From Oscillospiraceae bacterium (GTDB taxonomy: Bacteria; Bacillota; Clostridia; Oscillospirales; CAG-272): a stretch of 64,000 bases of DNA. The stretch spans positions 17,858 through 81,857 of the forward strand of contig SVSG01000007.1 of the NCBI GenBank assembly GCA_015064415.1. Reading direction: 5' to 3'. Below, piece by piece: positions 25,479 to 63,299 of this stretch (positions are counted from its first letter, which is position 1; every line of letters starts with the position of its first letter). The notes below the pieces were generated by a model. It saw only the letters and a program-made list of their open reading frames with translations. It had not been told where the DNA came from and made no database searches. A program made the translations under genes and the position numbers.

Positions 25479-25507
25479 TTGACAAAACCCCTCGCATCGG
25501 CTATAAT
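25479..25507 (+). promoter_or_regulatory. Promoter of tRNA-Gly
   Basis: TTGACA, a 17-bp spacer and TATAAT form an exact consensus, 11 bp upstream of the tRNA. Confidence 0.9.
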
Positions 25508-25518
25508 ATTACTGTTAT

Positions 25519-25592
25519 GCAGGCGTAGTCTAGTGGTAAAACCTCAGCTTCCCAAGCTGATGCTGCGGGTTCGATTCCCGTCGCCTGCTCCA
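25519..25592 (+). tRNA. tRNA-Gly (anticodon CCC)
   Basis: The acceptor GCAGGCG pairs with CGCCTGC, followed by discriminator T and encoded CCA. The anticodon stem TCAGC/GCTGA encloses loop TTCCCAA, giving anticodon CCC. The T arm is GCGGG-TTCGATT-CCCGT. It reads GGG codons. Confidence 0.95.
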
Positions 25593-25641
25593 AAGCAAAA
25601 GGGGCGCCAAACGGCGCCCCTTTTGCTTTGGAGCAGGCGAC
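25580..25641 (+). terminator. tRNA-Gly terminator extended into a 29-bp perfect inverted repeat
   Basis: The terminator core GGGGCGCC-AAAC-GGCGCCCC-TTTTG is nested in a much longer perfect palindrome. Its left arm starts inside the tRNA (last two T-stem bases, 3' acceptor strand and CCA) and its right arm runs to 25641, 29 bp per arm with a 4-nt loop. Confidence 0.85.
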
Positions 25642-25940
25642 CCACAAGCGCCCCGGTTTGCGCGCGAGAGAAATTGCGCCATTCGATATGCAACGGTGCG
25701 CGCGAACGCGGGTGCGCACACTCCGCCCGAAGATCCGGGAGCTTGCTCACGAGGCGCAGGGCGTGAGTGTATTCGCCAAAGGCGAAATACCCGTCGGGTC
25801 GAAGCACGTCGGGCTTTTCTTTTTTGCAAAAAAGCGAAAAAAGTCAGGTGATGGCAGCTTTTACAATCGGTTTACACACACCGCATACAAAAGTGTGATT
25901 TTTGCCCAAAAAAATAAAAAGTTTTTGTACAATAATACGA
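25642..25940. other. Intergenic region without recognised gene
   Basis: Roughly 300 bp with scattered dyads (for example TTCGCCAAAGGCGAA) and a T-rich hairpin near 25818-25850. No start with RBS and no family-like translation was found on either strand. Confidence 0.5.
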
Positions 25941-25969
25941 TTGCAAAATATACTGTAAAGTATTATAAT
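25941..25969 (+). promoter_or_regulatory. Promoter of the giant lipoprotein-ABC locus
   Basis: TTGCAA, a 17-bp AT-rich spacer and TATAAT, about 29 bp before the ATG. Confidence 0.8.
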
Positions 25970-25997
25970 GAAATTAATTCAAAAGAAAGGAGAGATT

Positions 25998-28900
25998 ATG
26001 ATGAAATTCAAGCATTTCAACAAATCTTTTTTCGCAGTTCTGTTGGTGATCGCCATGCTGCTTTCCGCTTGCGCGATCTTCGCTTCCTGCAGTGATGATC
26101 CGGAGCCCAACCAGAACGATCCGGGCACCAATCCGCCTACCTTGTCGAATTGCACGCATGCGCAAACGACAAAGAAAAATCAACGCGCCGCCACCTGTAC
26201 CGAGGCGGGCTATACCGGTGACGACGTCTGTACCGCGTGCGGTGCCGTTGTCAAGACGGGTGAGGCCATCGCCGTTCTGGCACACGCGTGGGATGCGGGT
26301 CAGATCACCAAGGATCCCACTTGTATCGAGCAGGGTGTGAAGACCATCACCTGCACCGGGTGTCTGACGACCAAGACAGAAAGCGTTCCCGTGGTGGCGC
26401 ATCGCGATGAATATCATGATGCACTGGACGGCACGCACTCGCACACCTGTACCACCTGTACGATGAGCGAGTTCAAGGAGCACACCCCCACCGATGCCGG
26501 TAAAGTCTATGCCGCCACCTGCACAACCGATGCTTACACTGAGTACACCTGCTCGGTATGCGAGGGCGTTTACCGCGTATACAGCACCACCGAAAAGGCC
26601 ACCGGCCACGCGTGGGGCGAATGGAGCACCGTTGCCGCCACCTGCATTGCCGCCGGTAGTAAGACCCGTGAGTGCGGTACTTGTGGCGAGGATGAGGTGC
26701 TGACCATTGACGTCGTTCCCTCGGCTCACAATTACGTGGAGGTCGGCCAGCGCAAGCTTGCCACCTGCGTGGCTGTCGGTACCATTTACTACCAGTGCAC
26801 GCACTGTGAGGGCACGACCACCAAGGAAATTCCGATCAATCATAACGCGCACGCGCTGAGTGCCGCCGTACAAAGCGGCAGCTTTTTGCGCCAGGAATGC
26901 GCACTGTGCGACTTTGAGGTCTCCAAGCTGGTGGCTACCTCCACCAACGCCACGGTGAGTGCAGGGGATATTGAGACAGGCCGCGCGCTGGAGATCGAGA
27001 CCACCGACGCCAGCGTGCAGTTCCCGAAGGACGTTGTTTCCCAGCTGACGGGCAACAAGGATGCTACGGTTGCGGTGAGCGCCGGCGTTGCCGCTGATAA
27101 GGCGGGCATTCTGAACAAGGCCCAGAACCTCACGCAGGAGCAAAAGGACCGCCTTAGCTCCGACGGCGTGGATATTTACGATTTTGGCGTGACGGTGGGC
27201 GGCGATCCGCTTTCCCAGTTTGATTCCACCATTACCGTTGTACTTCCTTACACCCTCAAGGAGGGCGAGGATCCCAACGGCATCGTGATCTGGTACGTGG
27301 CCGAGGATGGCAGCATCGAGCAGTATCCCGCCGTGTACGAAAACGGCACGGTGACCTTCCAGACCAAGCACTTCTCCTACTACGCGATCGCGTATGAGGA
27401 AACACAGGAGTCCAAGTGCCGTCGCGGCATCCACAGATGGATGGAGAACCCCTACGTTCTGGAGCCCACCTGCCAGCATCTGGGCTATACCAGAAACGAA
27501 TGTGACACCTGCCACACGGTCGAGCTGCACAACGTGCAGGAGCGTCTGGAGCACGAGTACGGCGAGCTGATCCAGCCCACCGTCAACTGCACCGAGGGTG
27601 GCTTTGTGCACAAGATCTGCGCCAAGTGCGAGCACGTGCTGGAGCTGACCTACGTGCGCGCCACCGGCCACACCCTGACCACCGTTGCCACCTGTACCAC
27701 CGGTGCTTACTGCGACGTGTGTGAGGAGCTGGTACGTCCTGCCACCGGCCACAACTGGTCTGAGTGGACCGTGGTGGTGGAGCCGAGCGAGACCACCGTT
27801 GGCCTGCGCCGCCGCAACTGCCCCAAGTGCGGCACTGTGGAGAACGTCAATATCGCCTACACGGGCAATATTGAAAAGCTGCAGTTCAACTCCTATGATG
27901 ACATTGCCAACTTCCTTGTCACCGACGTGCTGAACATGGAAAACGGCAAGATCTCGCTTGGTACGGTCATCACGGAGCACGCGAACGGCCCCTACTACCT
28001 GAATATTGATTTCACCATCAATAAGGAAGGCGAGTCCTACGCGATGCTGATCGATTATCGCATGTCCGAGTCGGAGAACGATCCGTTTGCGGATCACGTG
28101 CAGATCCTGTATCGCAACGGCGTGGCGCTGATGCTGGAGGATTATTCCGCGTGGGATGTGGACACCCTGCTTCTTCTCACGGGTAACGTTTTCGAAGGCA
28201 TGTTCGAGATGCCTTTCGTCAACTTCCGCGAGATCGCAGACAAGACGTTTGACTCCGTGGCTCCTACCTTTGAGCCCGTGATCGACAATCTCGGCACGCT
28301 GTTTGAGGTGCTTGACGCCCTCTTTGCCGAGGAGGTGGACGCGGCGCTTGCCAATGCGGACAGCACCTACACGGTGGGCAAGCTGGCCTCCGCTTATCAA
28401 CAGATCAAGAACACGTACGCATACTGGGCGTACAAGATGGGCTTCCAGACGGGGCTTTCCTATGACGGCACCGTCAACGTTGTGACAAGACAAGAGATCC
28501 TGGATACACTTTCCCATTTTATGACGGTGGAAAAGGATGCCACGGGCACCCATTACACCTGGGATTGCACCGAGCTGATGGAGGCCGTTGACACGGTGCT
28601 TGACTGGTTCCAGGAAAACGAGAAAAAGACGATGGCAGAGCTCCTCTGGCAGGAGTTCGGCGCAGACGTGACCGCCAAGTATCCCGACGTCAAGAGCTTT
28701 GAGGATGCAATGCAGGCACTGCGCGACGCCTTCCCCGGCACAACTCCCATGAAGGACGTGCTGGATGACCTGATCGCCTTCCTTGACGGGAAGAAAGCAG
28801 GTGCCACCGCTTCGCTTTACGCGATGGTGGATGCCATTGCCAAGGTGTTTATGGCCGGTGGGACCGAGTTTGACAGCGAGGAATATCTGCTGTCCATGGT

Positions 28901-31900
28901 GGAAGAGGGCACGCTGGACGATCTGGCTGCCATGATCCTCAAGGAAGAGGAGGCCACCGTTTCCGATCTCTTCGACAATCTTGAGGGTATGCTGACCGGC
29001 ATGACGCTGGGCACCGCTTACAGCAGAAGCGCAGAAAACGAGCAGGGCGAGCGCGTGACCATTACGCTGGCGGACTACGTCAAGACGGCGCGCGAAGCCA
29101 TTGACCGCATCACGATGACCGATGCGCTTTCCTTCTCGCTGGACGCGAAGGGCGATCTGACGGCATTTAGCTATGACAACAAGCTTGAGTACGCTGTCGG
29201 TGAGGAGGGCAATACCAAAAACGTCACCTTTGAACAGAGCACGCTGACCGTCACCCGCGACGAAAGCGTGAAGATCGAGCTCCCCGAGGCGCTGCAGAGC
29301 GCGGTCGCGGACAAGGTCACCGCCACCTTCAACGAGCTGGGTCAGCTTGTGGTGAAGGTGCCTGCCGGCTATGATATGGATTTCCGTGTGGAAAGCATCC
29401 GCAATCTGAACCCGCAGCTTTCCGACGTGCTGGAAAAGGACGAGGAAATGAGCCGGGAGCTCGGCGTTGACGTTTACGTGACCAAGGAAGCGTACTGGCA
29501 GAACCAAGGCATGTATTCTTCCTCCATCTATTACAAGGTAGACGGTGTATACTACAAGAGATGGGACAACTTTGGGGAAAAGAACAACTACGAAAAGATC
29601 GTCTCTCTGGCAGAGCTGCAGAAAAATCCCTCCGTGCTGTTGCCGGATGAGGAGGATTTCGTTGGCTACTACGTCGAGGGCGATAACGAGTACCGCGTTT
29701 ACCGCACCGCCCTGCTCAGCGAATACGGCAACTACTTTGCCTTTTTGCTTGACGGCGAGTGGTATCTGAAGAAGCAGATGCGGGATTATGCCGACTATTC
29801 GGGCGACACGCGCAAGGAATGGGATGCCACGACGGGGCAGATGGTCAGTAAGGAATACGTCAGCTTCCGCGAGGAGGTCGAGCTTGTATCCTTTAACAAG
29901 GTGTTCTCCAACGTTGAGATCAGCAGCATCGAGAAATGGCGCGATGGCATTCTGGTCGACGGCGTGGAGCGCGATCTGCTGCAGCTGTACGTCTCCCTGG
30001 ATATTTCCACGTGGGGCACCACTACGATGACGGCATACGGCTACATAGATTACGAGGACAACATCAACTTCTGTCGCTATGCGGACAAGGGCAGCGCGAC
30101 CACGCTGATCCCCTTCAAGGGCACGCCCGAGGGAACGTGCACGAGCTACTACGCCGCCGACATCGAGCGCGAGTTCTGTTTTGCGGACGGCACCAAGGTG
30201 CAGAGCAAGGTATACGTGGTGGAATTTGAGATCACGGAAAAGACTCGCGAGCCCCGTTACTACGCGAAGGTCGGCGGAGAGCTTTACGTTGATATCAGCT
30301 ATCTGGTCACCAATCCCGCACACCGCCATCTGAAAAATACGCTCACATTGCCCGACGGCAACGTGATGTACGTGCTTGGCGAGCGCGCTGAGGGCGGCGA
30401 GTTCTTTGGCAAGGAATACGATGATTACGCATTCGGTTATATCAAGCTGAGCGACGGGCTGTTCACCGAGGTGATCGCCCTGCGCGCAGGCGGCGAGGTC
30501 GTGGACGTTCGTTACCGCTACGCCACGGACACCTATATGGGTGTGGAATCCTGGCTGGAGCTTGAGGATTATATGGTAAAGGCAGACGATACCACCTATA
30601 TCTTCGCCAAGGAGCTGTTCACCCTGTTGCAGGGACTTTGCAAGGAAGAGGGCGACGGCTATACGCTTCGTGCAAACGGTTACAAGTGCACGGACAACAT
30701 GCAGATCAGATTGAAGGCAAGTCTTGCTTGCTATGTGCTGACACCGGATCAGATCGCCTTCGGCGGCATGGAAACGGAGCGTGACTTCGATTGGGATTCG
30801 ATGTTCTACAACATGGAAAACCAGCCCGCCTTCCGCATCATGACAAATAAGGAAGGCACGGTCAGCATCTATTTCGATGCGGGCGCCGAGGTCGAGGTTT
30901 GGGAATACGAGCTGGATGACCGCTATCCTGCCGACTCCTACATGGTGAAGGATCAGGCCATGAGCAACCAATACGGCCTGAACGTATACAGCTACTCCTT
31001 CGACTTCATGAAGGATCAAAGCTACTCCGAGTACGTTTACAAGGACGGCAAGTATTATCCGCTTGATTGGGATTACGTCTACGATTTTGAGTATGCGTCC
31101 TCTCTTGCCGCTTGCTTTAGCGACGCGTGGGTGCTGGAGGATATCTACTTCCGCTATACCATTCCCGCTGCGGACATCACGGGCGGCAAGGAGCTGCGCG
31201 CTTACCACTCCTGGTTGCACTTCTATGCGGCACCGAATGATGCGATCAGCGTTTACTTCACGGTGAAGGACGGCGTGCTGATGGCACTGCTTGGCGCAGA
31301 GGAGGAAAGCGAGCGCGTGCTTCGCTTTGAGAGCATGATGCCCTTCAGCGATTATATCGCGATGTTGATCTCCTCCGTCACGGAAAACGAGGATTACGGC
31401 TCCTTCGTGGAGGATCAGTTCCTTTACGTGGACGGCGAATACTATGCGGAAGAGTATCAGTACGTGAACATGACCGAAAGAAACGAGGCGGGCGAGGTGA
31501 TCAGAGAGCACCTGCTTTGCGTGCGCTTCTTCGAGAAGGACAGCGTGAAGAAGTACGCCAAGAACGTGCTGAACAAGGGCCGCTACCTCTTCTTCGACGA
31601 GGAGAGGGCTCTGGATGCACTTCCCGCATATGATGAAATTTACGAGGAAGAGGAGACCTTCTACAACGGCCTGTATACCGTGAGCGAATTGGTGCATTAC
31701 GAAGAGCACAAGGATTACGCCGTGAAGCTGGCGGGCAAGTACTACGATCTGGAATATTACATGGAGAGCTACGGCCCCCGTATCACCGAGTATGAATTCC
31801 GTGAGCGTATGTCCGAGAGCGAGGAGATCTACTTCATCCAATTGCCCAACGGCACGAACAAGTACTACAGCCGCGTGGATATCGAGTACGGCGAATGGGA

Positions 31901-32492
31901 TTCGTACGGCGTTCTGAGCGATCCGATCGATGAAGAATACGCCAACCGTATCGAGCTTGGCACGTATGCTCCGCTCAGCGTGTCCACAGAGAAGGGCGAG
32001 CAGATCTACTGCTTCTACGGCTATCTGGCCACCGAGTGGGATCTGGTCGAGGAGCCGCAGGGCGACGGCACGGTGTTCTATCACCGTGAGGGCCTGACCA
32101 AGGGCTATCTCAAGGATCAGAAGGGCTATTACGTCCGCGCCTCGAAGATCGTGGCGGATGACGGCAGCAGCTATATTCTGTGCCACACAACGCAGGTCAG
32201 CATCGACGATTATTACATCGATGAGATCGGTGCTTTTGCGGATTTTGTGACCTTCAACCGTGACGAAACGGTTGTGACGATCTCGCGCGAGCTTCTGGAA
32301 TGGATCGAGCAAAAGGATCTGGAAAAGTATTTCGTCATCAGACTGCGCTCCTATGACCGTTACGGCGAGCACTTCGTCACGCTGAATTACTATCAGCTGG
32401 CGGCGTGGCTGGAGCTTGCCGATGCGGGTGAGCTGGTTCCCGGCGATGCCGGTGACCCCACCCTGCAGTCGGACAACGGCTACTGGAACTAA
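25998..32492 (+). CDS. Giant Cys-repeat lipoprotein (about 2164 aa)
   Basis: It has a lipoprotein signal peptide (FFAVLLVIAMLLSAC; lipobox LSAC). Residues about 45-310 carry tandem ATCTExGxxxxxCxxCG-type repeats, about seven CxxC pairs. A beta-rich block ends in TITVVLPYTLKEGEDPNGIV and TKHFSYYAIAY, a motif seen in clostridial surface proteins. A second Cys-repeat set (PTCQHLGYTRNECDTC onward) ends near residue 620. The remaining 1500 residues are acidic and Tyr-rich, with recurrent YxxDGxYY-like units (YYKVDGVYYK, YVYKDGKYYP, FLYVDGEYYA). There is no wall anchor. AAAGGAG precedes tandem ATGs at 25998 and 26001. The next genes are a lipoprotein and an ABC exporter. I do not recognise a family for the C-terminal part. 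Confidence 0.8.
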   Translation: MMKFKHFNKSFFAVLLVIAMLLSACAIFASCSDDPEPNQNDPGTNPPTLSNCTHAQTTKKNQRAATCTEAGYTGDDVCTACGAVVKTGEAIAVLAHAWDAGQITKDPTCIEQGVKTITCTGCLTTKTESVPVVAHRDEYHDALDGTHSHTCTTCTMSEFKEHTPTDAGKVYAATCTTDAYTEYTCSVCEGVYRVYSTTEKATGHAWGEWSTVAATCIAAGSKTRECGTCGEDEVLTIDVVPSAHNYVEVGQRKLATCVAVGTIYYQCTHCEGTTTKEIPINHNAHALSAAVQSGSFLRQECALCDFEVSKLVATSTNATVSAGDIETGRALEIETTDASVQFPKDVVSQLTGNKDATVAVSAGVAADKAGILNKAQNLTQEQKDRLSSDGVDIYDFGVTVGGDPLSQFDSTITVVLPYTLKEGEDPNGIVIWYVAEDGSIEQYPAVYENGTVTFQTKHFSYYAIAYEETQESKCRRGIHRWMENPYVLEPTCQHLGYTRNECDTCHTVELHNVQERLEHEYGELIQPTVNCTEGGFVHKICAKCEHVLELTYVRATGHTLTTVATCTTGAYCDVCEELVRPATGHNWSEWTVVVEPSETTVGLRRRNCPKCGTVENVNIAYTGNIEKLQFNSYDDIANFLVTDVLNMENGKISLGTVITEHANGPYYLNIDFTINKEGESYAMLIDYRMSESENDPFADHVQILYRNGVALMLEDYSAWDVDTLLLLTGNVFEGMFEMPFVNFREIADKTFDSVAPTFEPVIDNLGTLFEVLDALFAEEVDAALANADSTYTVGKLASAYQQIKNTYAYWAYKMGFQTGLSYDGTVNVVTRQEILDTLSHFMTVEKDATGTHYTWDCTELMEAVDTVLDWFQENEKKTMAELLWQEFGADVTAKYPDVKSFEDAMQALRDAFPGTTPMKDVLDDLIAFLDGKKAGATASLYAMVDAIAKVFMAGGTEFDSEEYLLSMVEEGTLDDLAAMILKEEEATVSDLFDNLEGMLTGMTLGTAYSRSAENEQGERVTITLADYVKTAREAIDRITMTDALSFSLDAKGDLTAFSYDNKLEYAVGEEGNTKNVTFEQSTLTVTRDESVKIELPEALQSAVADKVTATFNELGQLVVKVPAGYDMDFRVESIRNLNPQLSDVLEKDEEMSRELGVDVYVTKEAYWQNQGMYSSSIYYKVDGVYYKRWDNFGEKNNYEKIVSLAELQKNPSVLLPDEEDFVGYYVEGDNEYRVYRTALLSEYGNYFAFLLDGEWYLKKQMRDYADYSGDTRKEWDATTGQMVSKEYVSFREEVELVSFNKVFSNVEISSIEKWRDGILVDGVERDLLQLYVSLDISTWGTTTMTAYGYIDYEDNINFCRYADKGSATTLIPFKGTPEGTCTSYYAADIEREFCFADGTKVQSKVYVVEFEITEKTREPRYYAKVGGELYVDISYLVTNPAHRHLKNTLTLPDGNVMYVLGERAEGGEFFGKEYDDYAFGYIKLSDGLFTEVIALRAGGEVVDVRYRYATDTYMGVESWLELEDYMVKADDTTYIFAKELFTLLQGLCKEEGDGYTLRANGYKCTDNMQIRLKASLACYVLTPDQIAFGGMETERDFDWDSMFYNMENQPAFRIMTNKEGTVSIYFDAGAEVEVWEYELDDRYPADSYMVKDQAMSNQYGLNVYSYSFDFMKDQSYSEYVYKDGKYYPLDWDYVYDFEYASSLAACFSDAWVLEDIYFRYTIPAADITGGKELRAYHSWLHFYAAPNDAISVYFTVKDGVLMALLGAEEESERVLRFESMMPFSDYIAMLISSVTENEDYGSFVEDQFLYVDGEYYAEEYQYVNMTERNEAGEVIREHLLCVRFFEKDSVKKYAKNVLNKGRYLFFDEERALDALPAYDEIYEEEETFYNGLYTVSELVHYEEHKDYAVKLAGKYYDLEYYMESYGPRITEYEFRERMSESEEIYFIQLPNGTNKYYSRVDIEYGEWDSYGVLSDPIDEEYANRIELGTYAPLSVSTEKGEQIYCFYGYLATEWDLVEEPQGDGTVFYHREGLTKGYLKDQKGYYVRASKIVADDGSSYILCHTTQVSIDDYYIDEIGAFADFVTFNRDETVVTISRELLEWIEQKDLEKYFVIRLRSYDRYGEHFVTLNYYQLAAWLELADAGELVPGDAGDPTLQSDNGYWN

Positions 32493-62981: not shown

Positions 62982-63066
62982 GCGGGCGTGGCGGAATTGG
63001 CAGACGCATAAGATTTAGGATCTTACGCCATTCGGTGTGCAGGTTCAAGTCCTGTCGCCCGCACCA
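62982..63066 (+). tRNA. tRNA-Leu (anticodon UAG)
   Basis: The acceptor GCGGGCG pairs with CGCCCGC, with encoded CCA. Anticodon stem TAAGA/TCTTA with loop TTTAGGA gives TAG. There is a long variable arm (CGCCATTCGGTGTG) as in class II tRNAs, and T arm CAGG-TTCAAGT-CCTG. It reads CUA, and CUG by wobble. Confidence 0.95.
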
Positions 63067-63068
63067 AC

Positions 63069-63112
63069 AAAAACAGAACATTTGTCTACCGACAAATGTT
63101 CTGTTTTTGTTT
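63069..63112 (+). terminator. Terminator of tRNA-Leu
   Basis: A long AAAACAGAACATTTGTC / GACAAATGTTCTGTTTT stem with a TACC loop, then TTGTTT. Confidence 0.92.
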
Positions 63113-63299
63113 ATCCAAGCCGCAGGCTTGGCATATCATCACGACGCAGTCGTGTATATCATCAAGGGCGCATTGCGCCCTTGTATCTCATCACGCGCCA
63201 GCGTGTATCTCCCTGCGGCTTGATGATATACAACACTTCGTGTTGATGATATGCAATTCCTGCGGAATTGATGATATACAAGGCTTCGCCTTGATTTAT
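63113..63299. repeat. Array of small hairpins joined by ATATCATCA / TGATGATAT linkers
   Basis: Six short palindromes lie about 25-30 bp apart: CGACGCAGTCG, AAGGGCGCATTGCGCCCTT, CACGCGCCAGCGTG, AACACTTCGTGTT, CAATTCCTGCGGAATTG, CAAGGCTTCGCCTTG. The first three are joined by (TA)TATCATCA-type linkers, the last three by the reverse complement TGATGATAT. A GCCGCAGGC / CCTGCGGC pair brackets the first half. No protein is likely. Confidence 0.75.

Follow-up and report, generated by a model that had tools for sequence, protein, structure and literature searches.

A palindrome at the 3′ end of a clostridial tRNA-Gly gene and a proposed rtT-like family of tRNA-tail repeat units

Repeats behind bacterial tRNA genes

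The description of the 178-bp repeats of Escherichia coli tyrT dates from the late 1970s and that of rtT RNA from about 1991. To our knowledge no function has been settled for these repeats since their discovery, and they look an oddity of one operon. At tyrT and tyrV/rttR the repeats are tandem, non-coding and behind a tRNA; a direct copy of 19 nt of the tRNA 3′ end, AATCCTTCCCCCACCACCA, occurs in tyrV/rttR at +159, +337 and +515, and every repeat has a degenerate mirror of the T arm, GGGGAAGGATGAGAAGCTTCGA, with a GAGAA change. With the direct copy denoted S and the mirror M, the annotated E. coli rttR RNA extends as far as the CCA of S, and the Rfam RtT model sets the M strand against the S strand. 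RtT RNA is reported to contain a tandem G.A motif (PMC7657543). In Salmonella rtT is a 175-bp VNTR, and a table of indels includes a further VNTR, of 220 bp, at a tRNA-Gly (PMC2658671); the latter may be a second enterobacterial rtT-like array.

The clostridial units dealt with here are likewise tandem non-coding repeats behind tRNA genes, with a direct copy of the tRNA 3′ end and a mirror that has the same GAGAA change. They also resemble REP or BIME sequences and other extragenic palindromes in being short intergenic hairpin repeats. REP, however, has no forward and inverted copies of a host tRNA 3′ end, whereas each unit carries the end of its own tRNA and the units hence differ at each tRNA. 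Direct repeats of tRNA 3′ ends are shared with tRNA-targeting integrative elements, those of the relatives having adjacent tyrosine recombinases, but the units are about 130-260 bp, gene-free, tandem and have an inverted copy too, and the integrative elements sit between tRNA and array.

The palindrome of tRNA-Gly(CCC)

In the window, the 64,000-nt stretch of DNA analysed here, the 29-nt inverted repeat to which an earlier note drew attention is real, its arms, 25580-25608 and 25613-25641, being complementary at 29/29 positions around the 4-nt loop AAAC; it ranks first among the short-distance inverted repeats of the 64 kb. The left arm, as that note had it, begins within the T stem, of which it includes the final 2 nt, and continues over the 3′ strand of the acceptor stem (25582-25588), the discriminator nucleotide and CCA. 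The tRNA gene (25519..25592, CCA encoded; ARAGORN, and 62 bits with Rfam RF00005), on the plus strand as are all the features of the unit described below, is preceded by a predicted promoter, TTGACA-17-TATAAT, at 25479..25507 with a 12/12 match to the consensus. Sixteen base pairs of the palindrome are the stem of an intrinsic terminator, T (25593..25628, loop AAAC), and the remainder is a 13-nt extension, M (25629..25641, TGGAGCAGGCGAC), that is the reverse complement of the tRNA-Gly(CCC) 3′ end. T has the G+C-rich hairpin and following T run (TTTTGCTTT, 25621-25629) of an intrinsic terminator; a consensus terminator scan gave no call there, the likely cause being a T run that is broken and sits inside the stem. 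The earlier observation that a simple terminator needs no extra 13 bp is borne out, an inverted copy of the tRNA 3′ end being involved. The chance probability of such an extension is about 4^-13. An ordinary terminator extended by chance, or an assembly artefact, has nothing to recommend it except the position after a tRNA and is refuted by the genus-wide occurrence of the same arrangement in MAGs obtained independently, in different studies and from different hosts; its probability is negligible.

Folding of 25519-25645 yields the 29-bp hairpin (-81.3 kcal/mol, z -10.5), whereas an RNA that stops in the T run (25519-25628) folds into the normal cloverleaf plus the 16-bp terminator, and so the acceptor stem is displaced only in read-through RNA at equilibrium. 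The proposition that the hairpin outcompetes the acceptor stem accordingly stands for that RNA and falls for RNA ending in the T run. Control of processing, also put forward in the earlier note, would have the right arm displace the acceptor stem of the precursor and thereby block or delay tRNA maturation in read-through RNA. Though the 29-bp hairpin does win at equilibrium, an RNA terminated at 25621-25629 lacks the right arm and keeps the cloverleaf, and the tRNA folds before M is made. M is also broken in many units by 2-3-nt insertions, and its mismatches against the genuine tRNA are without G-U bias (27 G-U, 32 A-C), so that pairing of M with the genuine tRNA seems not to be selected. Such control is very improbable.

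Downstream of M is X, whose first part is a long stem-loop at 25648..25717 (CGGTTTGCGCGC...GCGCGCGAACGCGGG), identified by folding, with the stem retained in relatives and its sequence changed. It is followed by a branched hairpin, X module type A, at 25711..25790, identified by covariation and by a covariance model, R2, at 96 bits (match G000:C41:43568-43647, equal to window 25711-25790), the model itself including the window's copy. The same type A module is common to units behind other tRNAs of the genus, for example Cys, Gln, Ser, Arg and Glu. The tRNA 3′ end itself (about 25573-25592) is the host copy, S0. After the type A module come a putative decayed second S copy and a degenerate T-rich terminator (together 25787..25826). 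The remnant ATACCCGTCG (25787-25796) is taken to derive from ..ATTCCCGTCG.. of the tRNA, an assignment that depends on comparison with the second units at L002, L004, L008 and L018. These loci carry further and better preserved units at the same place, and the window a single one.

No integrase gene directly beside tRNA-Gly(CCC) marks an attachment scar; its neighbours encode glutamate racemase and a protein of 2174 aa that matches no Pfam family. The ORF for the latter (25968-32492) has a signal-like N-terminus and Cys-rich repeats, and the strand opposite is likewise open across 2180 codons.

Units behind other tRNA genes of the family

In seven genomes of the same family, six from the genus and one (G022) from another genus, S-T-M-X units follow many operon-final tRNA genes, singly or in tandem. 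Each has the terminator T, an inverted copy of the acceptor and T arm of the host tRNA (M), the branched hairpins of X and a direct copy of the host 3′ end through CCA (S). With tRNAs taken as independent and the calls hinging on local alignment thresholds, the tRNA's own mirror exceeds the 99th percentile of other tRNAs' mirrors for 14/25 in G014, 11/30 in G020 and 8/25 in the window's genome (G000). An own S copy is present within 300 nt for 10/24, 11/23, 6/13, 11/21, 11/23 and 12/28 tRNAs in the six genus members and for 6/22 in G022; by the same scoring there are none in the out-groups G385 (0/16) and G026 (0/23). Those tRNAs closely followed by another tRNA show no enrichment of own mirrors or S copies.

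Behind tRNA-Lys(UUU) of the window's genome there is a 30-bp perfect palindrome of the same kind, and degenerate mirrors follow its Cys, Thr, His, Met, Val, Arg, Leu and Gly(GCC) tRNA genes. At tRNA-Gly(CCC) across the genus M is kept and the inner part of the terminator varies, being GGGGCGCC, GGGGTGCCC, GCGGAGCCCCC, ACCCCGCC or GTGCCACCC. Tandem arrays run S-T-M-X-S-T-M-X with a period of mostly 130-260 bp; that of tRNA-His in the window's genome has five units of 165 nt that are 96-98% identical. Apart from E. coli, the set compared includes metagenome assemblies, and contigs often stop in or at arrays.

As so many tRNAs, in this genome and in relatives, are followed by inverted and direct copies of their own 3′ ends, the palindrome is not a one-off scar, a possibility that the earlier note had entertained. 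What survives of its suggestion of an inverted duplication or integration is the inverted copy of the tRNA end; uniqueness does not.

When all GTDB contigs were scanned with an exact pattern for mirrored ends of tRNA-Gly, the matches fell mostly in the same genus, the contig titles being those of uncultured Clostridia or 'Oscillospiraceae' MAGs with stated hosts mostly ruminant gut; none of the matches in other phyla has tRNA-Gly(CCC) alongside. Candidatus Coproplasma avicola and further uncultured Clostridia (L144, L150, L155) likewise have S-T-M-X after tRNA-Gly(CCC), there with a 10-nt ATTATGCAAT-like insertion in M. A class-wide pattern, GCTCCA-N-TKGGAGC, was discarded as far too loose to inform. 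A literature search, largely outside subscription journals, yielded no account of such units in Clostridia, and they are apparently a large family of tRNA-tail elements not previously described.

A proposed tRNA-tail RNA made by read-through

The reading that we favour, with moderate confidence and from the sequences, is that the palindrome marks the seam, S0-T-M, of a tRNA-tail repeat unit of rtT type, one that would be transcribed by read-through, with M pairing to a downstream S. Polymerase passing T would transcribe M-X-S, and M could pair with S within the same unit in a helix like that of the acceptor plus T stem, often closed by G.A pairs. The product would be a structured RNA ending in CCA that could be freed by tRNA-processing enzymes, as the annotation of E. 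coli rttR suggests. M would be complementary to the real tRNA end too because S copies that end, and the long palindrome around the terminator would arise because T stands between the tRNA end and the complementary M. Recombination between direct S copies would expand, shrink and homogenize arrays, homogenization of this kind being indicated by the near-identity of units within arrays; in the window one unit would be left, with its S copy decayed. Strong terminators precede M, which counts against this reading insofar as M-X-S would be made only by read-through. As a guess, the unit RNA may be a by-product or a regulator of tRNA-operon read-through.

The layout of the units departs from that of rtT in several respects. 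Whereas E. coli rtT is one locus, the clostridial units are behind many tRNA genes; they have an intrinsic terminator between S and M, their M runs on through the acceptor strand to TGG, and their X modules are unrelated in sequence to rtT. A transcript is known only for E. coli rtT. At the gathering score RF00391 matched none of 300 genomes of the phylum, the window's own included, with the E. coli control positive. At E <= 1 the RtT model had no match at unit-bearing loci, the E. coli score being 133-138 bits. Given the lack of RF00391 matches in the phylum the units are not filed as RtT members. Of the traits of RtT, a direct host-tRNA 3′-end copy through CCA occurs family-wide, with a decayed remnant only in the window, as does tandem repetition with variable copy number, the window having one unit. 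The units are built like rtT and, by analogy, may well work like it, outside RF00391.

Altered T loops and the proposed pairing of M

S spans T loop to CCA and its T loop is altered, from GGTTCGA to GGTTCAGA, GGCGAG, GACGAG and others. M carries a matching systematic change, TCGAA to GAGAA, behind different tRNAs; GAGAACC is in 15/145 stretches 40-95 nt downstream and in 0/195 control stretches. S and M thus look mutually adapted rather than simple decaying copies, and at the former T-loop position they probably form G.A pairs.

Many units have both mirror and GAGAA motif, and their mismatches between M and the S copy are G-U in 10 cases and A-C in 13, a ratio that makes the M-S helix less convincing as RNA. 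That the G-U/A-C comparison can detect pairing in RNA is indicated by the terminator: in the first 30 nt downstream of tRNAs, changes between orthologues tend to preserve pairing, with 31 double Watson-Crick changes and 19 G-U vs 8 A-C (for this comparison each sequence was folded singly and the fold projected onto its orthologues). RNAalifold, tried with pairs of orthologs, was dropped for its bias towards standard pairs.

Some of these features could come from fold-back template switching, in which a nascent strand folds on the terminator and copies the tRNA 3′ end, the duplication then decaying and being remade by palindrome correction. The mirror does begin exactly at the terminator, its arms are perfect where the inner stems are varied, G-U preference is missing and mirrors decay in grades. 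But direct S copies, tandem units, covarying X modules and the TC-to-GA change shared by mirrored T loops are left unexplained, and out-groups with equally strong tRNA terminators have no such mirrors, so the idea is an improbable one.

The X modules

Two families of X, type A and type B, were collected. Type B is a three-way junction in which 14/20 pairs have changed on both sides, and 93.6% of cells are paired vs 79.4% when shuffled and 32-51% when slid; in well-paired columns G-U:A-C is 16:5. For type A 11/17 pairs covary and 80% of cells are paired, with hardly any G-U (G-U:A-C 3:7), a pattern that would suit DNA-level palindromes equally. Comparison of orthologs over the X region gave G-U:A-C of 89:72. 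The counts for M against the tRNA and against S, for type A and for the X region of orthologs fit DNA-level palindromes as well as RNA, and a DNA-level account, by recombination or a non-autonomous element, retains a substantial share.

A covariance-model search of ten whole genomes found X modules in this family only. In G020, counting from coordinates, 19/28 matches are within about 400 bp downstream of a tRNA, and several of the others bear a tRNA 3′-end copy (L374 Met, L383 Glu, L388 Ser, L390 Pro), these modules evidently having been shifted from their tRNA by an integrated element. A few X-like modules, among L375-L380, have no tRNA link and weigh against the favoured reading. Two of type B character that are nearly identical (L376 840-898 and L377 839-897, G020:C11) are inside a GGGGCTGTCTCAAAT-type inverted-repeat element with no tRNA near, and perhaps are a mobile relative of X. 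Further type-B-like modules, in two species and again with no tRNA near, are flanked by GAGCCACACCTCGATAT-like direct repeats (L375 392-447, L378 859-915).

Possible recombination at tRNA ends

Tyrosine recombinases that act at tRNA genes often have attachment sites running from T loop to CCA. The span of S is typical in this respect, and the units might be a selfish or recombination-made DNA repeat, non-autonomous, in which the tRNA 3′ end would serve as att core and M and X as hairpins recognized by a recombinase, any RNA being incidental. Near-identity of tandem units, identical X types behind different tRNAs and the lack of G-U preference in M agree with this, and true integrative elements do use these tRNA ends. 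At L031 (1751-2960, G018:C6) an integrase gene (358 aa) is directly followed by a tRNA-Gly(CCC) 3′-end att site and the original terminator palindrome. In the window's genome (L079 229-1380 / L388, G000:C17) a tyrosine recombinase gene appears to be in a stretch of about 6 kb between tRNA-Ser(GGA) and its S-T-M-X array, the array being at the far junction of that stretch with a 22-nt repeat of the tRNA 3′ end. The units themselves, however, are without genes, and their arrays stay behind orthologous tRNAs from one species to another. The integrative elements are distinct from them, an attachment core would have no need of the systematic changes seen in the T loops of S and M, and the covariation of X type B is RNA-like. 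Such a repeat is possible, though on the unlikely side.

Outlook for tRNA operons

Should the favoured reading, of an rtT-like unit transcribed by read-through, apply generally, most tRNA operons in this clade of gut Clostridia would carry their own CCA-ended structured RNA matched to the acceptor and T domain of their tRNA, with E. coli rtT one member of the class; this we offer as tentative and somewhat doubtful. If it is true, tRNA-specific tail RNAs could sense or influence the processing, charging or supply of their tRNA. With the same layout behind many tRNAs and each copy adapted to its own tRNA, the dozens of units in a genome are a natural data set for constraint. The units also explain why tRNA 3′ ends can have long perfect palindromes, which one would otherwise take for scars, and they mark sites of short-read assembly breaks.

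Array-like hairpins (TATCCAAGCCGCAGGCTTGG..) follow other tRNAs of the window's genome. In the window itself, tRNA-Leu(UAG) and its terminator are followed by a hairpin array of a different repeat, TTATCCAAGCCGCAGGCTTGGCATATCATC... (62982-63140), also present behind Tyr, Val(GAC), Ala(GGC) and Ser(GCT) tRNAs of the same genome, and similar TGATAT-linked hairpin arrays are behind tRNAs in other families of the order (G026).
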